DNA from: Deltaproteobacteria bacterium
GTDB taxonomy: Bacteria > Myxococcota > Myxococcia > Myxococcales > Anaeromyxobacteraceae
Length of the DNA stretch: 64,000 nucleotides
Assembly: GCA_016214955.1 (NCBI GenBank)
Contig: JACRMN010000012.1
Coordinates: forward strand, 62,001 to 126,000
Direction: 5' to 3'
Both the position numbers and the translations under genes were made by a program. Below the pieces are notes generated by a model, which was not told the DNA's origin, searched no databases, and worked only from the letters and a program-made list of their open reading frames with translations. Below, in pieces: positions 2,315 through 41,716 of the stretch (its first letter is position 1; the number at the start of each line of letters is the position of its first letter).

Positions 2315-2763
2315 GCCTTCACGCGCAGGACGCCGGGCGCGCCGAAGTGGCCGGTGGGCGCGCCGAAGGGGAGCTCCACCCGGGCGCCGGCCTCGTCGGC
2401 GAGGAGCCGGGCGGCTCCCGGCCCCACCAGCGCCAGGGGCAGGGCGTCGGGGCGCGGGAGGGCGGTGCGGACCGCCTCCACCGGGCAGACGGCGGCCAGG
2501 GCGGGCGCGAGCCCGGGCAGCGCGGCGCCGGGCACCACCTCCAGCGCCAGCGCGTAGCCGTTGAAGGTGCCCTCCCACCAGACCGAGAGCCGCGCCTCGC
2601 CGCGGGCGCAGCCGGCGGCCGCCTCGAGCAGCGCGGCGCGGAAGGCGCGGAAGGGGCCGGTGTCGCTCCGCGGGTCGGTGCCGGGCGCGGCGCGATCGCC
2701 GAAGGCGCGGCGAAGCTCCTCCAGCGCCAGGAGCAGCACCTGCGCCTCGGGGGCCGCGGCCAC
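2311..2763 (-). CDS. hypothetical protein
   Basis: A 150-residue soluble protein that I do not recognise. It starts at GTG 2763, just three bases after the stop of the preceding HEAT-like gene, so it is probably the last gene of a three-gene minus-strand operon headed by the metzincin lipoprotein. It has no signal peptide or membrane segment. A central stretch around LSVWWEGTFNGYALALEVV is the least biased in composition and looks like a real beta-rich core. No catalytic motif is evident. Confidence 0.6.
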   Translation of the reverse strand: MAAAPEAQVLLLALEELRRAFGDRAAPGTDPRSDTGPFRAFRAALLEAAAGCARGEARLSVWWEGTFNGYALALEVVPGAALPGLAPALAAVCPVEAVRTALPRPDALPLALVGPGAARLLADEAGARVELPFGAPTGHFGAPGVLRVKA

Positions 2764-2766
2764 TGG

Positions 2767-3333
2767 TCAGCGCCCGGAGGCGCCGCAGCGGGAGAGGGCC
2801 CGGGCCAGGCCGGGCCGCTCGCCGCGGAGCGCGGCCCGCGCCCGGATGGCGCCGCAGGACTCTGCCGGCGCCCGCTCGGCCAGCACCTCGGCGGCCACGG
2901 TGCGATCGGCGGGGCGCCGCGCCGCCAGCACCGGAGAGAGGGCCCGGTGCAGCGCCGCCGGCGCCAGGAGCCGCCCCGCCCCCTCGAGCGCCGCGGCCCG
3001 CACCGCGAAGGGGAGCCCTTCCTGCGCAGCGAAGGAGGTGAGTGCCGCCTCGGCGCGCGCGCCGCCCAGGTGCGAGAGACCGGTGAGCGCCAGCGCCCGT
3101 CGCCGGGGCAGCGCCGCGCCGTCGGCGGCGACCTTCAGGAGCGCCTCGTCGGCGCCCGGGCCGAGGGAGCGCCAGGTGGCCGGGGCGGGGGAGCCGTGGA
3201 TCCGGCCCAGCGCGGCCTGGATGCGCTCGGCCTGCTCGGCGGCGGTGGCCGGCGGCGGCGGCTCGGCGGGCTCGGGGGCGGGCGGGCGCGGGGCCGCCAG
3301 CGCGGCGCAGACCAGCAGGGAGAGGGCGGTCAT
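2767..3333 (-). CDS. secreted HEAT-repeat-like protein
   Basis: A 188-residue protein starting at ATG 3333, two bases after the stop of the upstream protease gene. Residues 1-14 (MTALSLLVCAALAA) look like a signal peptide, followed by a Pro-rich linker (about residues 15-30). The remainder is Ala/Leu-rich helical pairs such as ALALTGLSHLGGARAEAALT and FAVRAAALEGAGRLL, resembling degenerate HEAT/PBS-lyase repeats that bind other proteins. Two cysteines (GAIRARAALRG is preceded by SC; another lies near the end) could form a disulfide. Its function is unknown. Operon position suggests a partner of the protease. Confidence 0.65.
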   Translation of the reverse strand: MTALSLLVCAALAAPRPPAPEPAEPPPPATAAEQAERIQAALGRIHGSPAPATWRSLGPGADEALLKVAADGAALPRRRALALTGLSHLGGARAEAALTSFAAQEGLPFAVRAAALEGAGRLLAPAALHRALSPVLAARRPADRTVAAEVLAERAPAESCGAIRARAALRGERPGLARALSRCGASGR

Positions 3334-3335
3334 GC

Positions 3336-4865
3336 TCACCTCACGAGCGGGCTGGTGCGGGCGACCTGCCCCTGCTCCGCGGTCAGGTAGCCGCGGGAGA
3401 CGAGCGGGTCGAAGGACCAGAACATCAGGTTCGGGCCGCCGCCGCAGGTGGTGCTGCGGGCGCAGGCCGCGGGAGAGACCTCGGCGCTGCTGCAGGAGGT
3501 CCTGCAGGACGGGGTGCCGGTGAGCGGGTCCCAGTGCCTGCCGTCGTGCTCCGTGAGGTGGTAGAGGCCCAGGTAGTGGCCGCTCTCGTGGGCGGCGATG
3601 TAGGCCACCTCGTCGGAGCCGCAGCGCAGGACGTCGACCGGCCCGCCGGCCGCCGGGCAGGTGCCGGCCCCCAGGTTGGCCGCCGAGACCATGGCGCCGC
3701 TGGCCACGGTGCCGTTGACGGTGGCCGGGCCGGGGATGGTGCCGTCGATGCCCAGCGTGGCGCTGCCGCTGCCGATGCGGGGCACGAGGAACAGGTCCAG
3801 CGTCCGCTGGCCGGGCACGGAGAGGGTGAGGAGCTGAGAGAACTCGCCGCAGGCGGAGCCGTCGGCGTCGGAGACGCCGGTGCCGAAGCGGCTGCGCGCC
3901 CAGTCGGGCGCGTCGAGGAAGGTGACGGTGCCGAGGCAGAGGCCGGCCTGGGAGAGGAGGACGGCGTAGGCGTCCACCATCCGCAGGGTGGCCGCGTGGG
4001 TGGGGGCCGAGGCGGCGTCCACCGGCATCAGCTGGCCGGGTGCCAGGGCGTCCACCAGGTGGAAGGCGACGTCGAGCGTGCCGGTGGCCGGGATGGCGCT
4101 GCCGGTCGGGGCCGCCGGCCGCGTCAGCACGAACACCCGGTAGCGCCCCTGGGCGAAGGGGGTCACCCCGGCGCCCGGGGGATCGCAGGAGAAGCCGGCC
4201 AGCGCCGCCGGCGGGTCCGGGCTGCCGGCCAGGGCGCACTCGTAGCCGTAGTCGCCGACCCGCACGGTCCAGTCGCCCGCGGCAACGCCGCTGGCCGCCA
4301 CCTCGAGCGCAGCGCTGGTGTTGGGGTAGGAGAGCGTGCCGGTCACCGCCGCGTAGGACTCGAAGAACAGGGGCGTGGCCGAGCCGTCGGAGGGGCCGCC
4401 CAGCCGGATGTCGGTGAAGACCAGGAAGCCGGCCGGGTCGCGCAGCTCGGCGACCACGGCGGCGTTCTCCTCGATGAAGGTCTGGGTGGTGCTCCCGGAG
4501 GCGAAGTGGATGGTCATCCGGGCGGCGGCATCCACCACCTGCTCGATGACGGTGATGCTGGCGGTCCCGGGTGGGACGGGAAAGGGAACCACCTCGCCGA
4601 CGGTGCGCTCGCCCAGGTCGATCCAGCCGTGCGTGGCCGAGGCCGACACCGCCGGCAGCGCGCTGTCTCGCACCGCCTGCACGCAGGTGGCACCGGGGTC
4701 GGGCGCGGGGTTGGTGCCGCCGTTCACCAGCACCGGGGCGGAGGGGCAGCGCACCGCCGGGGCGCGCGGCTCCTCGTAGGGCGGGAAGGGCGGGTCGGCG
4801 CCCGGGCAGGCCGCCAGGGTGGCCAGGATCGGGAGGGCGAGGCGGCGCGGCACGGCCTCATGCAT
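3336..4865 (-). CDS. metzincin-type zinc metalloprotease lipoprotein
   Basis: A 509-residue protein with a lipoprotein signal: LPILATLAAC puts the acylated cysteine at residue 20. The C-terminal part contains HESGHYLGLYH at residues 426-436, an exact HExxHxxGxxH metzincin zinc motif with three His ligands and catalytic Glu427. A Met-turn candidate NLMFWSF follows about 50 residues later. Several cysteine pairs around the active-site region suggest disulfides in the mature protein. Residues 60-400 are a beta-rich extracellular region without a family I can name. It is first in an apparent operon with a HEAT-like protein and a small unknown protein. It probably cleaves extracellular or surface proteins; the target is unknown. 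Confidence 0.82.
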   Translation of the reverse strand: MHEAVPRRLALPILATLAACPGADPPFPPYEEPRAPAVRCPSAPVLVNGGTNPAPDPGATCVQAVRDSALPAVSASATHGWIDLGERTVGEVVPFPVPPGTASITVIEQVVDAAARMTIHFASGSTTQTFIEENAAVVAELRDPAGFLVFTDIRLGGPSDGSATPLFFESYAAVTGTLSYPNTSAALEVAASGVAAGDWTVRVGDYGYECALAGSPDPPAALAGFSCDPPGAGVTPFAQGRYRVFVLTRPAAPTGSAIPATGTLDVAFHLVDALAPGQLMPVDAASAPTHAATLRMVDAYAVLLSQAGLCLGTVTFLDAPDWARSRFGTGVSDADGSACGEFSQLLTLSVPGQRTLDLFLVPRIGSGSATLGIDGTIPGPATVNGTVASGAMVSAANLGAGTCPAAGGPVDVLRCGSDEVAYIAAHESGHYLGLYHLTEHDGRHWDPLTGTPSCRTSCSSAEVSPAACARSTTCGGGPNLMFWSFDPLVSRGYLTAEQGQVARTSPLVR

Positions 4866-32813: not shown

Positions 32814-33254
32814 TCACCCCGGGAACAGCGCCCGCTCCACCCGCTCCACCGCGCCCACCAGGTCGGCGCGGGTGAGCCGCGCGCCCTCGGCCCACTCCTT
32901 GAGGCCCAGGCACTTCTCGGTCACGAAGCGCACCAGCAGGTGGCAGGCGGCCTCGTCGGCCGGCGAGCGCAGCGCTGCCGGCCCCTCGTGGCCCAGCAGC
33001 CGCTCCTCGGCCTCGAACCGGCGCTCGAGGTCGAGCCTGGCGAGCCGGAGCGCCAGGCGCAGCACCTCGGGGCGCGGCCGCTCGGCGAGGCCCGCCGCCC
33101 AGCGCTGGCGCAGCTCCTCGCTCACCCACTCGACGAGCGGCGGCGGCCAGGCCCCGAGCTCCCTCGCCAGCTCCTCGGCGAAGCGCCGGCAGATGACGTC
33201 GCGCACCGGCTCCTTCTGCAGGTCGTAGATCCAGTCGAAGCGGCGGTCGCGCAT
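32814..33254 (-). CDS. hypothetical protein
   Basis: A 146-residue soluble, mostly helical protein that I do not recognise. Its start, MRDRRFDWIYDLQKEPVRDVICRRF, is distinctive and unlike chance frame translations in this DNA, and the composition (many Glu, Arg, Leu in amphipathic helices) supports a real gene. There is no signal or membrane segment. One Cys-Leu-Gly segment near LVRFVTEKCLGLKEWAEG may be the core. It is convergent with the transaldolase gene and divergent from the MFS gene. Confidence 0.65.
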   Translation of the reverse strand: MRDRRFDWIYDLQKEPVRDVICRRFAEELARELGAWPPPLVEWVSEELRQRWAAGLAERPRPEVLRLALRLARLDLERRFEAEERLLGHEGPAALRSPADEAACHLLVRFVTEKCLGLKEWAEGARLTRADLVGAVERVERALFPG

Positions 33255-33346
33255 CGGGGCGGAGTGTAGCCGAGCGCCCGCTCCCGCGGTGCGGCGGCCC
33301 GGGCGGGTGATTGGCCCGGGACCGCCTCGCGAGGCATGAATGGGCC

Positions 33347-34510
33347 ATGCCCCGCAGCGACCCCGCCCTCCGCCGGGCCCTGGCCGGCGCCCTGGCGCTG
33401 GCCGCGGCCATGGGCATCGGCCGCTTCGCCTACACGGCGCTCCTGCCCGCGGCGCAGCGCGCGCTCGGCATCGACGACGCCGTGGGCGGCGCCATCGCCT
33501 CGGTGAACCTCCTCGGCTACCTGGTGGGCGTGCTGGTGGCCCGCGGCCTCCCGCAGCCGGCGCGCCCCCGCGGCCTCCTCACCGGCCTGTTCCTCACCGC
33601 CCTCACCACCGCCGGGGTGGCCGCGAGCGGGGCCCCGCTCCTCTGGTTCGCGCTCCGCTTCCTCTCCGGCGTGGCCAGCGGCCTGGTCTTCGTCCTCGCC
33701 ACCACCGCCGCCCTCGACGCCGGCCCCGGCTCGGTGCCGCGCCCGGGCACGCTCTACGCCGGCGTGGGCTGCGGCATGGCCTTCTCCGGCGCCCTGGCCG
33801 GCCTGGTGCCTGGATCGCTCGGCTGGCAGCTCCCCTGGCTGCTCCTCGGCGGCGTGGCCGCGGCCCTGGCCCTCGCCGCCTGGCCGGCCCTCGGCGCCCC
33901 GCTGGCCCACGGCCCAGCGGCCGGCGGCCCGGCGAGCGGCCCCCACGGCGGCCTGCGGCTCGGCTTCCGGCGGCTGGGCGCCGCCTACTTCCTCGAGGGG
34001 CTGGGCTACATCGTCAGCGGCACCTTCGCGGTGGTGGCGGTGCGGCGCACGCCCGGGCTGGAGGCGCTCGCCCCCTGGACCTGGACGCTCACCGGGCTCG
34101 CCGCCGCCCCCTCGGCGCCGCTCTGGAGCGCCCTCGGCCGGCGCATCGGGCTGCGCGGAGCGCTGGTGGTGGCCTACCTGACCCAGGCGGCCGGCATGGC
34201 GCTGCCCTCGGTGTCGAACGCCGCCGCCTCGGCCGTCGTCGGCGCGGCCCTCTTCGGCAGCACCTTCCTGGGCATCGTGGTGCTCACCATGAGCGCCGCC
34301 CGGCTGCTCGTTCCCCGGGCGCTCGGCCGCGCGGTGGGCACGCTCACCGCCCTCTACGGCGTGGGCCAGATCATCGGCCCCATCGCCGCCGGTGCCCTCT
34401 CGCAGCGCCTCGGCGACCCGCGGCCCGCGGTGCTGCTGGCCTCGCTGGCGGTGGCCGCCGGCGCGGCGCTGCTCGCCTGGCCGTCGCCTCGACCGTCACC
34501 CGCACCCTGA
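33347..34510 (+). CDS. MFS transporter, YbfB/YjiJ-like
   Basis: A 387-residue protein with about 12 hydrophobic segments. ALAAAMGIGRFAYTALLPAA near the N-terminus is the signature of the YbfB/YjiJ family of major facilitator transporters (IGRFxYTxLLPxM). The central cytoplasmic loop is near residue 190-205 (GPAAGGPASGPHGG). Substrate unknown. ATG 33347 is used; codons before it are rich in charged residues. It is followed after nine bases by the tautomerase gene, probably an operon. Confidence 0.88.
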   Translation: MPRSDPALRRALAGALALAAAMGIGRFAYTALLPAAQRALGIDDAVGGAIASVNLLGYLVGVLVARGLPQPARPRGLLTGLFLTALTTAGVAASGAPLLWFALRFLSGVASGLVFVLATTAALDAGPGSVPRPGTLYAGVGCGMAFSGALAGLVPGSLGWQLPWLLLGGVAAALALAAWPALGAPLAHGPAAGGPASGPHGGLRLGFRRLGAAYFLEGLGYIVSGTFAVVAVRRTPGLEALAPWTWTLTGLAAAPSAPLWSALGRRIGLRGALVVAYLTQAAGMALPSVSNAAASAVVGAALFGSTFLGIVVLTMSAARLLVPRALGRAVGTLTALYGVGQIIGPIAAGALSQRLGDPRPAVLLASLAVAAGAALLAWPSPRPSPAP

Positions 34511-34723: not shown

Positions 34724-34838
34724 CGCCGCCGCCTCCGGCGCCGTGGCTGGGAAACGGTGACCGGCGGCAGGCGCATCCCGGATGGGCTTTCCGGGGCGAG
34801 CGCCATCCGATCCTTGGCCTCCGGCCGTTTCCCGGGGC

Positions 34839-35726
34839 ATGAGCGAGAGCGAGACGGGCACCGCTCCGGTGGTCAGGCGGATCCGCCTGCGGTCGGGCCA
34901 GCACATGGCAACGTCGGTGCAGGGCGGCACCGGTCCGGCCGTGGTGCTGCTGCACGGTATCCCGGGGTGGCGTGGAACCTTCGGCGAGGTGGCCCGGCGG
35001 CTGGCGGACGAGTGTCGGGTCTACTCGCCCGACCTGCTCGGGTTCGGAGAGTCGGATCCCGCGCCGCCGGGGGCTCACGCCGCCGAGCAGGCCGCCGCCG
35101 TGGTCGAGCTGCTCGATGCGCTGGGCCTCGCCTCGGCTCACCTGGTGGGCTTCGACTACGGGGGACCCACCGCCGTGCTCGTGGCCGCCCGGGCCCGGGA
35201 GCGGGTCTCTTCGCTCACCCTGGCGGCCACCAACCTCTTCCCGGATACCCCGGTGCCCGCGCCGCTCCGGGTCGCCTCGGTGCCGCTGCTGGGCGACCTC
35301 GCCTTCCGCCTGGCGTTCGCCCGGCCCGGCCTGGTCGCGCTGTGGCGGGCGGCGACCGCGGACCGGGCCGCTTTCCCCTGGGCGCGCTTCCGCGCCGCCC
35401 TTTCCTCCCCGCAGGGAGTGCGCTCCACGCGGGAGATCTTCCTGGCCAGCCTGCGCGACCTGCCCGGCCTCTACGGCCCGGTCGCGGACGCAGCGCGCAC
35501 CCTGGGACTCCCGGCGGCCGTTCTCTGGGGGGACCGCGACCCCTTCTTCCCGCCGGCGGCGGGCCGGCGCACCGCGGAGGCCCTGGGCGGCAGCCTCCGG
35601 ATCCTGGCAGGATGCGGCCACTTCGTCCCCGAGGAGCGGCCGGCGGAGATGGCCCAGGCGGTGCTCGGCCTGGTCCGCGCCGGGCGGCCCGCGGTGGCGC
35701 GGAGCGCGGGAGGCCGCGAGGCGTGA
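34839..35726 (+). CDS. alpha/beta hydrolase with Asp nucleophile (epoxide hydrolase / haloalkane dehalogenase type)
   Basis: A 295-residue alpha/beta hydrolase. The nucleophile elbow reads VGFDYGGPT, so Asp106 stands where esterases have Ser; this is the mark of haloalkane dehalogenases and epoxide hydrolases. LLHGIPGW supplies the oxyanion-hole His-Gly. The acid is in LWGDRDPFFP and the His in CGHFVPEERP. A cap region spans roughly residues 130-215. The stop overlaps the GTG start of the ECF sigma factor (GTGA), so the two are translated together. The substrate is unknown; the pairing suggests the sigma factor controls or responds to the reaction. Confidence 0.88.
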   Translation: MSESETGTAPVVRRIRLRSGQHMATSVQGGTGPAVVLLHGIPGWRGTFGEVARRLADECRVYSPDLLGFGESDPAPPGAHAAEQAAAVVELLDALGLASAHLVGFDYGGPTAVLVAARARERVSSLTLAATNLFPDTPVPAPLRVASVPLLGDLAFRLAFARPGLVALWRAATADRAAFPWARFRAALSSPQGVRSTREIFLASLRDLPGLYGPVADAARTLGLPAAVLWGDRDPFFPPAAGRRTAEALGGSLRILAGCGHFVPEERPAEMAQAVLGLVRAGRPAVARSAGGREA

Positions 35727-36487
35727 GAGGCTCGACCGAGCAGAGGGCGCGGCTGGCCGAGGGGTTCCAGGAGTGCCGGCAGGCGCTGACCGGATACCTC
35801 ACCAAGCTGCTCGCCCGCGAGGACGTCGCCGAGGAGCTTGTGCAGCAGGCGGCGCTCCGCGCCTTGGAGCAGGAGGTGCTGCCCGAGGCGCCCGGCGAGC
35901 TGCGCTCCTGGCTCTTCCGCGTCGCCACCAACCTGGCCATCGACCACCTCCGCCGCCAGGCCACCTGGCGGGAGGGGGTCCTCGACGACGTGCGCAGCCG
36001 GGTCGAGCGGAGCGAGGGCTTCGTGGCCGCCTCGCGGCTGCTGGCCGGCTCGCCGGAGATGCGGGCCATCGCTCGCGACCATCTGGCGGTCTGCTTCGCC
36101 TGCACCCTGCGCAGCCTCGCCCCCCAGGAGTCGGCGGCCCTGCTGCTGCGGGAGCTCTATGGCTTCACCACCCAGGAGGTCGCCGAGGTGCTGGGGGCCC
36201 GCTTCGCCCAGGCCAAGCGCTGGATCCAGGCGGCGCGCGCCTCTCTGCAGGCGCGCTACCAGCGTACCTGCGCCCTGGTGACCCAGGAAGGAGCCTGCTT
36301 CCAGTGCGTCGAGCTGGACCGCTTCTTCGAGGCCGGCGCCGGTGACCCGCTGGCGGGCACCGATCGCTCCCTGGGCGCGCGCCTGGTGGTCATCGGCCGG
36401 CGGGGCGACGAGCCGCTCAGCCCCTGGCACCGGCAGATGATGAAGCTGGTGGGCGATGTGCTGGAGGAGGAGCCCGGAGGGCGGTGA
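35723..36487 (+). CDS. ECF sigma factor with internal and C-terminal Cys motifs
   Basis: A 254-residue sigma-70-family factor. Region 2 is about residues 15-82 (LRSWLFRVATNLAIDHLRRQ). Region 4 is about residues 128-180 (LYGFTTQEVAEVLGARFAQAKRWIQ). Between them is His120-x3-Cys124-x2-Cys127, an HxxxCxxC pattern like the zinc site of ZAS anti-sigma factors. After region 4 there is a 74-residue extension with Cys183 and Cys192-x2-Cys195. No anti-sigma gene is adjacent. The metal-sensing CorE-type (ECF44) factors of myxobacteria also lack an anti-sigma and use Cys motifs in the linker and C-terminus. This factor may sense metal or redox by the same logic; that is inference. GTG start overlaps the hydrolase stop. 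Confidence 0.86.
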   Translation: MRGSTEQRARLAEGFQECRQALTGYLTKLLAREDVAEELVQQAALRALEQEVLPEAPGELRSWLFRVATNLAIDHLRRQATWREGVLDDVRSRVERSEGFVAASRLLAGSPEMRAIARDHLAVCFACTLRSLAPQESAALLLRELYGFTTQEVAEVLGARFAQAKRWIQAARASLQARYQRTCALVTQEGACFQCVELDRFFEAGAGDPLAGTDRSLGARLVVIGRRGDEPLSPWHRQMMKLVGDVLEEEPGGR

Positions 36488-37748: not shown

Positions 37749-38765
37749 ATGCTGGTCGTGATGAAGCCCCATGCCACCCCCGCCGAGGTCGAGGCGGTGG
37801 TGGAGAAGATCCGCGGCATGGGCCTCACGCCGCACGCCATCCCCGGAGCCCAGCGGGTGGCCATCGGCGTCACCGGCAACAAGGGCGCCGTCGAACCCGG
37901 CCCGTTCACCGCCCTCCCCGGCGTCGCCGACTGCATCCGCGTCTCGCAGCCCTTCAAGCTGGTCTCGCGCGAGGTGAAGGAGGAGGACACGGTCATCGAC
38001 GTGGGCGGCGTGAAGCTCGGCGGCCCGTCCATCGTCGTCATGGCCGGCCCCTGCTCGGTGGAGTCCAAGGAGCAGCTCCTCGAGGCGGCCCACGGCGTGA
38101 AGAAGCTCGGCGCCCGCTTCCTCCGCGGCGGCGCCTGGAAGCCCCGCACCAGCCCCTACGAGTTCCAGGGCATGGGCGAGGAGGGCCTGAAGCTCCTGGC
38201 GCTGGCCCGCGAGCAGACCGGCCTCCAGGTGGTCACCGAGGTGATGGACCCGGAGACTCTGCCGCTCTGCGTCGAGTACGCCGACGTGCTGCAGATCGGC
38301 GCCCGGAACATGCAGAACTTCTCGCTGCTGAAGCGGCTCGGCACCGTCAACAAGCCGGTGCTGCTGAAGCGCGGCCCCTCGGCCACGCTCCGCGAGTGGC
38401 TCATGGCCGCCGAGTACGTGGTGGCCCACGGCAACTACCAGGTGGCGCTCTGCGAGCGGGGCATCCGCACCTTCGAGACCATGACCCGCAACACCCTCGA
38501 CCTCAACGCCGTGCCGGTGCTCAAGGCGCTCACCCACCTTCCGGTGGTGGTGGACCCCTCGCATGGCATCGGCCTGCGCCGCCACGTGCCGGCCATGGCC
38601 CGGGCCGGCATCGCCGCCGGCGCCGACGCCATCATCGTCGAGGTGCACCCCAGGCCGGAGTGCGCCCTCTCCGACGGACAGCAGTCGCTGGACCTCGCCG
38701 AGTTCGGCGCGCTGATGACCCAGGTGAAGGTCATCGCCGGCGCCATCGGCCGCCCGGTGGCCTGA
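37749..38765 (+). CDS. aroF: 3-deoxy-7-phosphoheptulonate (DAHP) synthase, copy 1
   Basis: A 338-residue DAHP synthase of the type with an N-terminal ferredoxin-like regulatory domain (residues 1-70), as in Thermotoga. It condenses PEP and erythrose-4-phosphate, the first step to aromatic amino acids. MAGPCSVES near residue 98, [33 protein letters not shown], and [25 protein letters not shown] with VEVHPRPE are present. A paralogue of identical length lies 2 kb downstream, separated by a DGPF protein and a sigma factor. The regulatory domain is expected to bind Tyr or Phe; family knowledge. Confidence 0.96.
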
Positions 38766-38917: not shown

Positions 38918-39346
38918 ATGCGCTTCATGGTGATCGTCAAGGCGGACGCGAAGTCGGAGTCGGAGAAGGGCCCCAGCGCCGGCGACGAGAAGCTCTTCGC
39001 AGAGATGGGCAAGTACAACGAGGAGCTGGTGAAGGCCGGCGTCATGCTGGCCGGCGAGGGGCTGCACCCCAGCCGCAAGGGCGCGCGGGTGCGCTTCGAG
39101 GGCGACAGGCGCACCGTAGTCGACGGCCCCTTCGCCGAGACCAAGGAGCTGGTGGCGGGCTTCTGGCTCTGGCAGGTGAAGTCGCGCGAGGAGGCCATCG
39201 CCTGGCTGAAGCGCGCCCCCTTCCGCGAGGGCGAGGTGGAGATCCGGCAGGTGTACGAGACCGAGGAGTTCGCCGCCGCCGATCCCTCGGGCGAGCTGCG
39301 CAAGCAGGAGGATCGCCTGCGCGCGGAGATGGCGGCGCGCCACTAG
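38918..39346 (+). CDS. DGPF-domain (YCII-related) protein
   Basis: A 142-residue YCII/DGPF protein. [17 protein letters not shown] is the family start and [21 protein letters not shown] holds the DGPF motif. Its active-site region resembles YCII relatives, but the activity of the DGPF group is not established. These genes are known to accompany ECF42 sigma factors, and here the sigma factor starts 16 bases downstream. ATG 38918 has AGGAG at 38907-38911. It lies between the two DAHP synthase copies. Confidence 0.92.
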
Positions 39347-39361
39347 GCGGCCGGACGCGGA

Positions 39362-40637
39362 ATGCACGGAGCCGGGCAGGCGACGCGCGCGGCGGTGGAG
39401 GCCGTCTACCGCATCGAGTCGCCGCGCCTCATCGCCGGCCTGGCCCGGGTGGTGCGCGACGTGGGGCTGGCGGAGGAACTGGCCCAGGAGGCGCTGGTGG
39501 CGGCGCTCACCCGGTGGCCGGAGGTGGGCGTGCCCGACAACCCCGGCGCCTGGCTCATGGCCACCGCGCGGCGCCGCGCCATCGACGAGCTGCGGCGCCG
39601 CGCGCTCCACGAGCGGAAGCAGGGGGCGCTGGCGCTGGCCGGGGAGGAGCGCGAGGCGGCCCTGTCCGGCCCCGAGGCCGCCTCCGGCGGGGAGCTGGGC
39701 GACGATCTCCTGCGGCTCATCTTCACGGCCTGTCACCCGGTGCTCTCCCCCGAGGCCCGGGTGGCGCTGACGCTGCGGCTCCTGGGCGGCCTCACCACCG
39801 AGGAGATCGCCCGGGCCTTCCTGGTGCCCGAGCCCACCGTGGCCCAGCGCATCGTCCGCGCCAAGCGGGCGCTGGCCGAGGCGCGGGTGCCGTTCGAGGT
39901 GCCGCAGGGGCCGGAGCGGGCCGCGCGGCTCTCCTCGGTGCTGGCGGTGCTGTACCTGATCTTCAACGAGGGCTACTCGGCCACCGCCGGCGGGGACTGG
40001 GTGCGGCCGGCGCTGTGCGAGGAGGCGATGCGGCTGGCCCGCGTGCTGGCGGAGCTGGCGCCCGAGGAGCCGGAGGTGCACGGCCTGGCGGCGCTGCTGG
40101 AGCTGCAGGGCTCGCGGCTGCGGGCCCGCACCGGCCCCGGCGGCGAGCCGGTGCTGCTGCTCGACCAGGACCGGAGCCGCTGGGACCGGATCCTCATCGC
40201 TCGGGGGCTGGCGGCGCTGGCGCGCCGAGGCGCTGGGCGGCGCGCTCGGCCCCTACGGCCTCCAGGCCGCCATCGCCGCCTGCCACGCCCGGGCCCGCAC
40301 CGCCGCCGAGACCGACTGGGACCGCATCGCCGCCCTCTACGACGCCCTGGCGGCGCTGGCGCCGTCGCCGGTGGTGGAGCTCAACCGCGCCATGGCCGTG
40401 GCCATGGCCTTCGGGCCCGAGGTCGGGCTGGCGCTCCTCGAGCCGCTGGAAGAGGAGCCGGCCCTGCGCGGCTACCACCTCCTGCCTGCCGCCCGCGGCG
40501 ATCTCCTCTCGCGCCTGGGGCGGCGCGCCGAGGCCCGGGCCGAGCTCCTGCGGGCCGCCTCGCTCACCCGCAACGAGCGGGAGCGGGCGCTGCTCCTGGC
40601 GCGGGCCGAGGCCTGCCTGGCGCCGGCCGGCGGGTAG
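39362..40637 (+). pseudogene. frameshifted ECF42-like sigma factor with TPR C-terminal domain
   Basis: An ECF42-like (DUF6596) sigma factor broken by a frameshift near 40220-40226. Frame one runs from ATG 39362 through region 2 ([22 protein letters not shown]), region 4 ([28 protein letters not shown]) and DUF6596 to RGLAALAR. There the sense continues in the +1 frame ([17 protein letters not shown] ... [17 protein letters not shown]) to the stop at 40637, the TPR-like C-terminal part. Two bases appear to be missing. Joined, it would be about 424 residues, normal for the group. The unshifted frame has no stop until the end of the downstream DAHP synthase. It may be a real mutation, programmed shift or sequencing error. 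Confidence 0.85.
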
Positions 40638-40699
40638 CGGGGCTTCCACCGCGGGCCCGATCGCGTCTATCCTTCCGGCCCTTTTCCGCGGAGCCGTCC

Positions 40700-41716
40700 A
40701 TGTTCGTCGCCATGAAGCCCCACGCCACCGAGGCCGAGTTCCAGGCGGTGGTGGAGAAGATCACCGCCCTGGGCCTCACCCCGCACCCCATCACCGGCAC
40801 CGAGCGCAAGGTGGTGGCGGTGATCGGCAACGTCGCCAGCGTCGAGCCCGACGACTTCGCCTCGCTGCCGGGCGTGGCCGAGGCGCTGCGGGTCTCCCAG
40901 CCCTTCAAGCTGGTGTCGCGCGAGGTGCGGGAGGAGGACACGGTCCTCGACGTCGGCGGGGCCCAGGTGGGCGGCAAGGCCATCGCCATCATGGCCGGCC
41001 CCTGCTCGGTGGAGTCGAGGGAGCAGATCCTGGAGACGGCCCACGCCGTGAAGAAGGCCGGCGCCAGCTTCCTCCGCGGAGGCGCCTACAAGCCGCGCAC
41101 CAGCCCCTACGAGTTCCAGGGGCTGCGCGAGGAGGGGCTGAAGCTCCTGGCCCTGGCGCGCGAGCAGACCGGCCTCCGGGTGGTCACCGAGGTGATGAGC
41201 ACCGAGGCGGTGCCGCTGGTGGCCGACTACGCCGACGTGCTGCAGGTGGGCGCGCGCAACATGCAGAACTACGCGCTGCTGGAGCGGCTCGGGCAGATCG
41301 AGAAGCCGGTGATGCTGAAGCGCGGCCTGGCCGGCACCATCAAGGAGTGGCTCATGGCCGCCGAGTACATCGTGGCCAAGGGCAACCCGCGGGTCATCCT
41401 CTGCGAGCGCGGCATCCGCACCTTCGAGCCCATGACCCGCAACACCCTCGACATCAACGCCATCCCGGTGCTGAAGAGCCTCACCCACCTGCCGGTGATG
41501 GTCGACCCCTCGCACGGCATCGGCATCCGCAAGCACGTGCCGGCCATCGCCCGCGCCGGCATCGCCGCCGGCGCCGACGGCATCATCGTCGAGGTGCACC
41601 CGCGGCCCGAGAAGGCGCTCAGCGACGGCCACCAGTCGCTCACCCCCGCCGAGTTCGAGGGGCTGATGCGCCAGGTGCGGGTCATCGCCAGCGCGGTGGA
41701 GCGGCCGATCGCCTAG
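40700..41716 (+). CDS. aroF: 3-deoxy-7-phosphoheptulonate (DAHP) synthase, copy 2
   Basis: A second 338-residue DAHP synthase, aligning with copy 1 from end to end without gaps and identical at most positions by eye ([57 protein letters not shown]). It differs most in the N-terminal regulatory domain ([20 protein letters not shown]), so the two copies may respond to different amino acids. ATG 40700 is used. Its frame coincides with the unshifted frame of the preceding sigma factor remnant, but a normal start is more likely than a fusion. Confidence 0.95.

Follow-up and report, generated by a model that had tools for sequence, protein, structure and literature searches.

An ECF sigma factor with an internal His/Cys site and a neighbouring alpha/beta hydrolase gene, conserved together with a candidate promoter

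In ECF41 systems, the sole target of the sigma factor is reported to be the neighbouring COE gene, which is transcribed from a TGTCACA-n16-CGTC promoter, and sigma activity is set by the C-terminal extension and not by the partner, whose co-expression had no effect on it (PMC3426412). Precedent for on-board cysteines comes from CorE, CorE2 and OrbS (PMC8999054, PMC3107203, PMC9023288), where Cys clusters in C-terminal extensions sense Cu and Cd/Zn (CorE and CorE2; PMC8999054) or Fe(II) (OrbS; PMC9023288). CorE and CorE2 (ECF238, formerly ECF44) are described as having cysteines near the sigma2-sigma4 linker and in the extension, and no anti-sigma factor (PMC8999054), while OrbS (ECF243), also regulated by C-terminal cysteines without an anti-sigma factor, has siderophore genes as its targets and responds to Fe(II) by inhibition (PMC9023288). 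A further reference point is the Hx3Cx2C motif, which serves as a zinc signature for class I anti-sigma factors; the soluble ones are often redox sensors, and about 72% of them carry the motif, in line with that role (PMC7406223). On the enzyme side, DhmeA is a subfamily III haloalkane dehalogenase-like (HLD-III) protein with the pentad N63, D129, W130, D258 and H286; HLD-III members are reported to have low dehalogenase activity, and one of them, OleB, is a beta-lactone decarboxylase (PMC10503415).

Here we describe a gene pair in a stretch of 64,000 nucleotides from a Deltaproteobacteria bacterium of the Anaeromyxobacteraceae (the window; contig JACRMN010000012.1, positions 62,001 to 126,000), the features of which are collected in Table 1. 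An earlier note on this DNA had proposed a hydrolase gene overlapping an ECF sigma factor gene without an anti-sigma gene. Both open reading frames were confirmed, sharing the four nucleotides GTGA, and a Pfam scan recognised no anti-sigma gene among the neighbours of the window sigma gene, as the note had said. The scan assigned these neighbours to MFS_4, tautomerase, the hydrolase (Abhydrolase_1, 2.3e-30), a convergent alpha/beta hydrolase, YCII and an ECF42-type gene; no siderophore or iron genes were recognised among them, and a 145-aa ORF near the pair (32814-33254, minus strand) had no Pfam match. The tautomerase and MFS genes, which were not seen beside the hydrolase at other loci of the clade described below, probably lie outside the hydrolase-sigma module. 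Within 38918-41716 of the window, a YCII gene precedes a second ECF gene, of ECF42 type (DUF6596). The ORF of this ECF gene runs on into what we take to be a DAHP synthase, which suggests a frameshift, and a second gene, presumably also for a DAHP synthase, lies at 37749-38765.

Table 1. Coordinates of the gene pair, its sequence features and two flanking genes in the window.
Feature	Position	Strand	Description
Flanking MFS transporter, YbfB family	33311..34510	+	PF06779 5e-61
Flanking tautomerase (4-OT type), 67 aa	34520..34723	+	PF01361 5.9e-22
Predicted ECF promoter	34804..34829	+	CATCCG-N16-CGTT upstream of hydrolase ATG
Type A alpha/beta hydrolase	34839..35726	+	ATG start, 295 aa, GFDYGG, Asp nucleophile D106
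ECF sigma factor	35723..36487	+	GTG start, 254 aa, overlaps hydrolase stop by 4 nt
H120-x3-C124-x2-C127 motif	36080..36103	+	sigma4 N-terminus
Sigma factor C-terminal extension, residues 181-254	36263..36484	+	beyond Pfam sigma domains
C183-x8-C192-x2-C195 motif	36269..36307	+	opens the sigma factor's C-terminal extension

The window sigma factor matched Sigma70_r2 (residues 15-80) and Sigma70_r4_2 (residues 124-175) above the Pfam cut-off, and its cysteines are C18, C124, C127, C183, C192 and C195. The last three stand at the start of the extension of about 74 residues that follows sigma4, in which R220 is invariant across the family alignment. H120 and the five cysteines from C124 onward were all found at the positions given in the earlier note, as was the CxxC (C192/C195) within the extension. 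The HxxxCxxC motif itself also stood, but its placement between the two DNA-binding regions had to be corrected: since H120 lies four residues ahead of the Pfam sigma4 domain and C124 and C127 are among its first residues, the motif falls on the N-terminal helix of sigma4. A DNA pattern that fixes the six codons at their exact distances matched the window once (36080-36307) and none of 100 shuffles. An AlphaFold model of the sigma factor, built from a five-sequence alignment (A1), reached a pLDDT of 55.8 and was set aside as structural evidence.

Compared with the described systems, the window factor can be set beside ECF41 (Ecf41Bli, SigJ), with which it shares the lack of an anti-sigma factor, an extension at the C-terminus, a single neighbouring enzyme gene that is predicted to be the only target and a bipartite promoter with a CGTC-type -10 element. 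The extension, however, is SnoaL-like in ECF41, whereas that of the window factor carries the His/Cys residues and has no SnoaL match (Pfam finds only the sigma domains and weak HTH matches); the promoters are TGTCACA-N16-CGTC and CATCCG-N16-CGTT, respectively, and the partner is an alpha/beta hydrolase instead of a COE enzyme. The earlier note had likened the factor to CorE, with another motif and an enzyme partner, and these two differences held. Both factors have cysteines near the sigma2-sigma4 linker and in the extension and lack an anti-sigma factor, but CorE combines a CxC in the linker with a Cys-rich domain and serves metal homeostasis, whereas no CxC was found in the sigma2-sigma4 linker of the window factor, which has Hx3Cx2C and Cx8Cx2C and adjoins a hydrolase gene; its extension holds three conserved cysteines, CorE having been compared by description. 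OrbS differs in its siderophore targets, iron genes being absent from the recognised neighbours here. The Hx3Cx2C spacing is exactly that of class I anti-sigma factors (RsrA, ChrR type); there a separate protein carries the motif, while in the window the sigma factor itself bears it, where sigma4 begins. ECF42 is marked by a TPR / DUF6596 extension and a YCII neighbour; DUF6596 is absent from the window factor and present in the ECF42-type gene at 39362. By the features tested, the window sigma factor is thus not ECF41, ECF42 or CorE.

Four relatives of the sigma factor at 65 to 68% identity were retrieved from genome contigs with peptide probes, and an alignment of the five sequences shows no variation at any of the six His/Cys positions, although two of the six probes span the motifs, so that this set is not wholly independent for motif conservation. 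In the phylum set, the exact-spacing pattern matched 10 of 195 genomes searched and identified sigma factors in three (G000, G108 and G147; the window factor, L033 and L037). The other matches were in-frame but did not read as sigma factors (L031, L032), gave no sigma factor on translation (L028, L030, L034) or were left untranslated (L035, L036), their printed matches looking nearly identical to that of L034. In the class of G196, 18 of 289 genomes matched at 20 places, with none for the reversed control. Because pattern-found sequences carry the six residues by construction, a profile search (A3) was added, in which full-length members, scoring some 300 bits and upward, stood apart from generic ECFs (at most 116 bits), with partial or broken copies between. 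The earlier note had named conservation of the six residues in close homologues as one check to make. Nine intact homologues were obtained without the pattern, and eight of these retain every one of the six (L065, L066, L011, L012, L014, L135, L136 and L149, of which L149 came from the A1 profile). The ninth and most divergent, L138 (204 bits), has lost C127. One of the eight is a Bacteroidota protein (Haliscomenobacter) with 28% identity to the window factor.

The sigma-hydrolase module was absent from the 23 other Anaeromyxobacteraceae genomes searched and is therefore not a core function of the lineage. Viral contig, phage and plasmid sets yielded Haliscomenobacter and weak generic ECFs only, and genomes of at least 13 Mb gave generic matches or none in the A3 search, which is weak evidence on membership in ECF220 or ECF276, groups with Sorangium examples. 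Frameshifted, stop-interrupted or truncated sigma-gene copies were seen at L137, L139, L140 and L141 (in G335, G325, G243 and G423), and from these broken copies the family is undergoing loss in some lineages. At L093 (G331; 2686-4596, minus strand), the sigma ORF reads without a stop into an AraC-type regulator (PF12625 and HTH_18), giving 637 aa, which reflects either a true fusion of the sigma factor with a DNA-binding regulator or the way the contig was assembled.

The window sigma factor falls in a clade of nine rows with tree support of 100/100. Conservation of the gene pair across genomes, also a check named in the earlier note, was found throughout this clade, with an alpha/beta hydrolase gene directly upstream of the sigma gene in 9/9 members. 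The overlap of the two genes measures 4 nt in the window, L066, L098, L104 and L136 and is longer in L011 and L012; at L149 the gene caller used left a gap of 64 nt. The hydrolases are of two types, A (window, L065, L066, L098) and B (L066, L098, L104, L136, L011, L012, L149), about 25-32% identical to each other, and L066 and L098 have both, in the order A, B, sigma. Between the type A and sigma genes of L065, a 115-aa remnant (792-1139) resembles type B over short stretches (38-54%), which is gene decay in progress.

For both hydrolase types, DhmeA was the top PDB match by sequence, and it was also the top fold match for the type A model (mean pLDDT 68, with the cap region mostly below 50). 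The predicted triad D106-D234-H261 of the window enzyme aligns with D129, D258 and H286 of DhmeA, whereas the positions of N63 and W130 are taken by I41 and Y107 (Phe in relatives). Type B hydrolases keep all five pentad residues and, judged by sequence, are HLD-III-like. DhmeA and OleB share the Asp-Asp-His triad with type A, and their subfamily holds its best sequence and structural neighbours. Haloalkane dehalogenases have two halide-stabilising residues (Trp and Asn, or two Trp); the window enzyme lacks both and is no canonical haloalkane dehalogenase. The assignment to a haloalkane dehalogenase / epoxide hydrolase type in the earlier note therefore holds for the Asp nucleophile, the acid and the His base and fails for the halide-stabilising residues. 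Epoxide hydrolases have two Tyr residues in the cap domain; in type A enzymes only Y212 looks conserved there, as judged by eye and in a cap region modelled with low confidence.

A candidate promoter, CATCCG-N16-CGTY, lies 8-11 nt before the hydrolase start in 8/8 clade loci with upstream sequence (the contig of L065 starts within the hydrolase). It was defined by eye on seven loci and later found at the eighth, L149. The fetched loci hold 186 other genes, and the sole match there proved to be L149's own hydrolase, leaving 0/185. In the window, the element matched once against 0.02 expected, in the form CATCCG-N16-CGTT, and, with the A of the ATG as +1, its hexamer lies at -35 to -30 and its CGTT at -13 to -10, from which a leaderless mRNA is predicted. 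Across nine genomes there were 27 matches, eight of them at the clade loci and one before a lone hydrolase in G213. None of the remaining 18 precedes a called gene start, although some, for example L152, open long ORFs and the gene caller likewise overlooked the start at L165, one of the true loci. The G213 site lies on another contig (L177, G213:C387), before a solitary type A hydrolase that is 66-70% identical to other type A enzymes, whereas the sigma locus of G213 has type B alone; no sigma gene was seen near this site in trans, and no other single finding speaks as strongly for a regulatory link. From the co-occurrence of element and gene, we infer that CATCCG-N16-CGTY may be read by the adjoining sigma factor. 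Two other interpretations of this region were discarded: CCATCCGATCC was dropped as a -10 element once CGTY appeared at a fixed distance of 16, and CCATCC as conserved coding sequence was likewise abandoned, since its distance to the ATG varies by single bases.

A sister group of sigma factors, about 23-30% identical to that of the window and with the same six residues, showed a different element, TTGGCR or TTGACA, N17/18, CGTC. Defined by eye on nine loci and then found at four more, it occurs at 13/18 group loci and before 0/182 other genes, or at 13/23 rows once the Bacteroidota member is added along with the broken or divergent copies; it is missing at L063, L064, L089, L092 and L093. The four later sites precede the sigma gene itself in L094 and divergently transcribed neighbours in L097, L101 and L102. 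The genes behind the element encode GSTs (L090, L091, L096, L103, L101, and L141 by similarity), SnoaL-like proteins (L135, L102), an AHSA1/SRPBCC protein (L097) and a 98-aa protein (L095, L099, and L100 by similarity). Pfam recognised nothing in either of the scanned members of the 98-aa partner (L095, L099); the protein also had no PDB match and is presumably a dimeric alpha/beta-barrel type ('DABB') protein. A stricter form of the element matched 23 times in six genomes, six matches being the partner genes, one per genome, with 12 inside genes, four before unrelated genes and one without a gene called after it. In the tree, partner type tracks the sigma-factor clade, and in the Bacteroidota member a gene for a zinc-type dehydrogenase lies upstream of the sigma gene. 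Immediately ahead of the partner gene's -35 element, L096, L099, L100 and L135 have a GATTCC-like stretch, perhaps an UP-type element. A DUF6855 gene at L099 (4506-4988) shares its first 4 nt with the end of the sigma gene, and a similar-looking gene lies 39 nt downstream of the sigma gene at L100.

Sequence comparison supports the view that sigma factor, six His/Cys residues, upstream hydrolase and CATCCG-N16-CGTY are conserved together, and the best reading by analogy is that these regulators may act like ECF41/COE, with the His/Cys site in place of SnoaL. RNA polymerase with the window sigma factor would transcribe the hydrolase-sigma operon from its CATCCG-N16-CGTY element, giving a leaderless mRNA and positive feedback. 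H120, C124 and C127 on the first sigma4 helix and C183, C192 and C195 just past the last might hold sigma4 in a metal-thiolate clamp. A small molecule that is electrophilic or oxidising could react with the thiolates and so release sigma4, which would then bind the -35 element and RNA polymerase; the hydrolase made in response might remove that compound. We put at about one half the probability that the locus encodes a self-regulated ECF factor that needs no anti-sigma factor, is hard-wired to one enzyme in a promoter-driven operon and is held by a His/Cys clamp opened by electrophiles. The site may sense an electrophile or an oxidant, and the range of partners (GST, HLD-III-like hydrolase, ADH) makes a detoxification role plausible. 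A wider proposal is tentative, though possible: that the anti-sigma-like Hx3Cx2C and the Cx8Cx2C together form a covalent electrophile sensor throughout this ECF lineage, each clade having swapped in its own detoxifying enzyme and promoter, to give a one-protein xenobiotic response with, here, a leaderless enzyme-sigma mRNA.

Near-invariance of the His/Cys site would equally suit a structural zinc clamp, with the partner protein as the sensor or with transcription of the sigma gene as the sole control on the sigma factor. Every partner fold binds small molecules, and the 4-nt overlap suits stoichiometric synthesis, but in ECF41 the co-expressed partner left sigma activity unchanged (PMC3426412), and three divergently transcribed partners carry the promoter element, as targets would; we consider this explanation rather doubtful. 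It is unlikely that the site instead reports a free metal ion, with the enzyme as a secondary target. The extension Cys clusters of CorE, CorE2 and OrbS do sense metals (PMC8999054, PMC9023288), but the motif here differs from the CxC of CorE, the partners are a hydrolase, GST, SnoaL, SRPBCC, ADH and similar proteins, and the neighbours tested included no recognised metal transporter or metal chaperone. Absence of the pair from the 23 other family genomes might suggest an ordinary ECF factor that happens to lie beside an unrelated hydrolase, which the retention of the pair in every clade member and the element in trans before the G213 type A hydrolase make very improbable.

No description of the sigma-hydrolase pairing was found in the literature searched, although the family may already bear a group number in the 2021 ECF classification; the promoter, partner and conservation results were derived in the present analysis. 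An ECF factor hard-wired to one enzyme and opened by electrophiles would carry the ECF41 principle, in which a sensor extension goes with one enzyme target, over to a sensor based on His and Cys and to partners of several kinds. The elements described here offer concrete promoters for testing. If the site senses electrophiles, such factors could serve as compact biosensors, each made of a single protein, for haloalkanes, epoxides or quinones, and could aid in assigning functions to HLD-III-like and GST enzymes without a known substrate.
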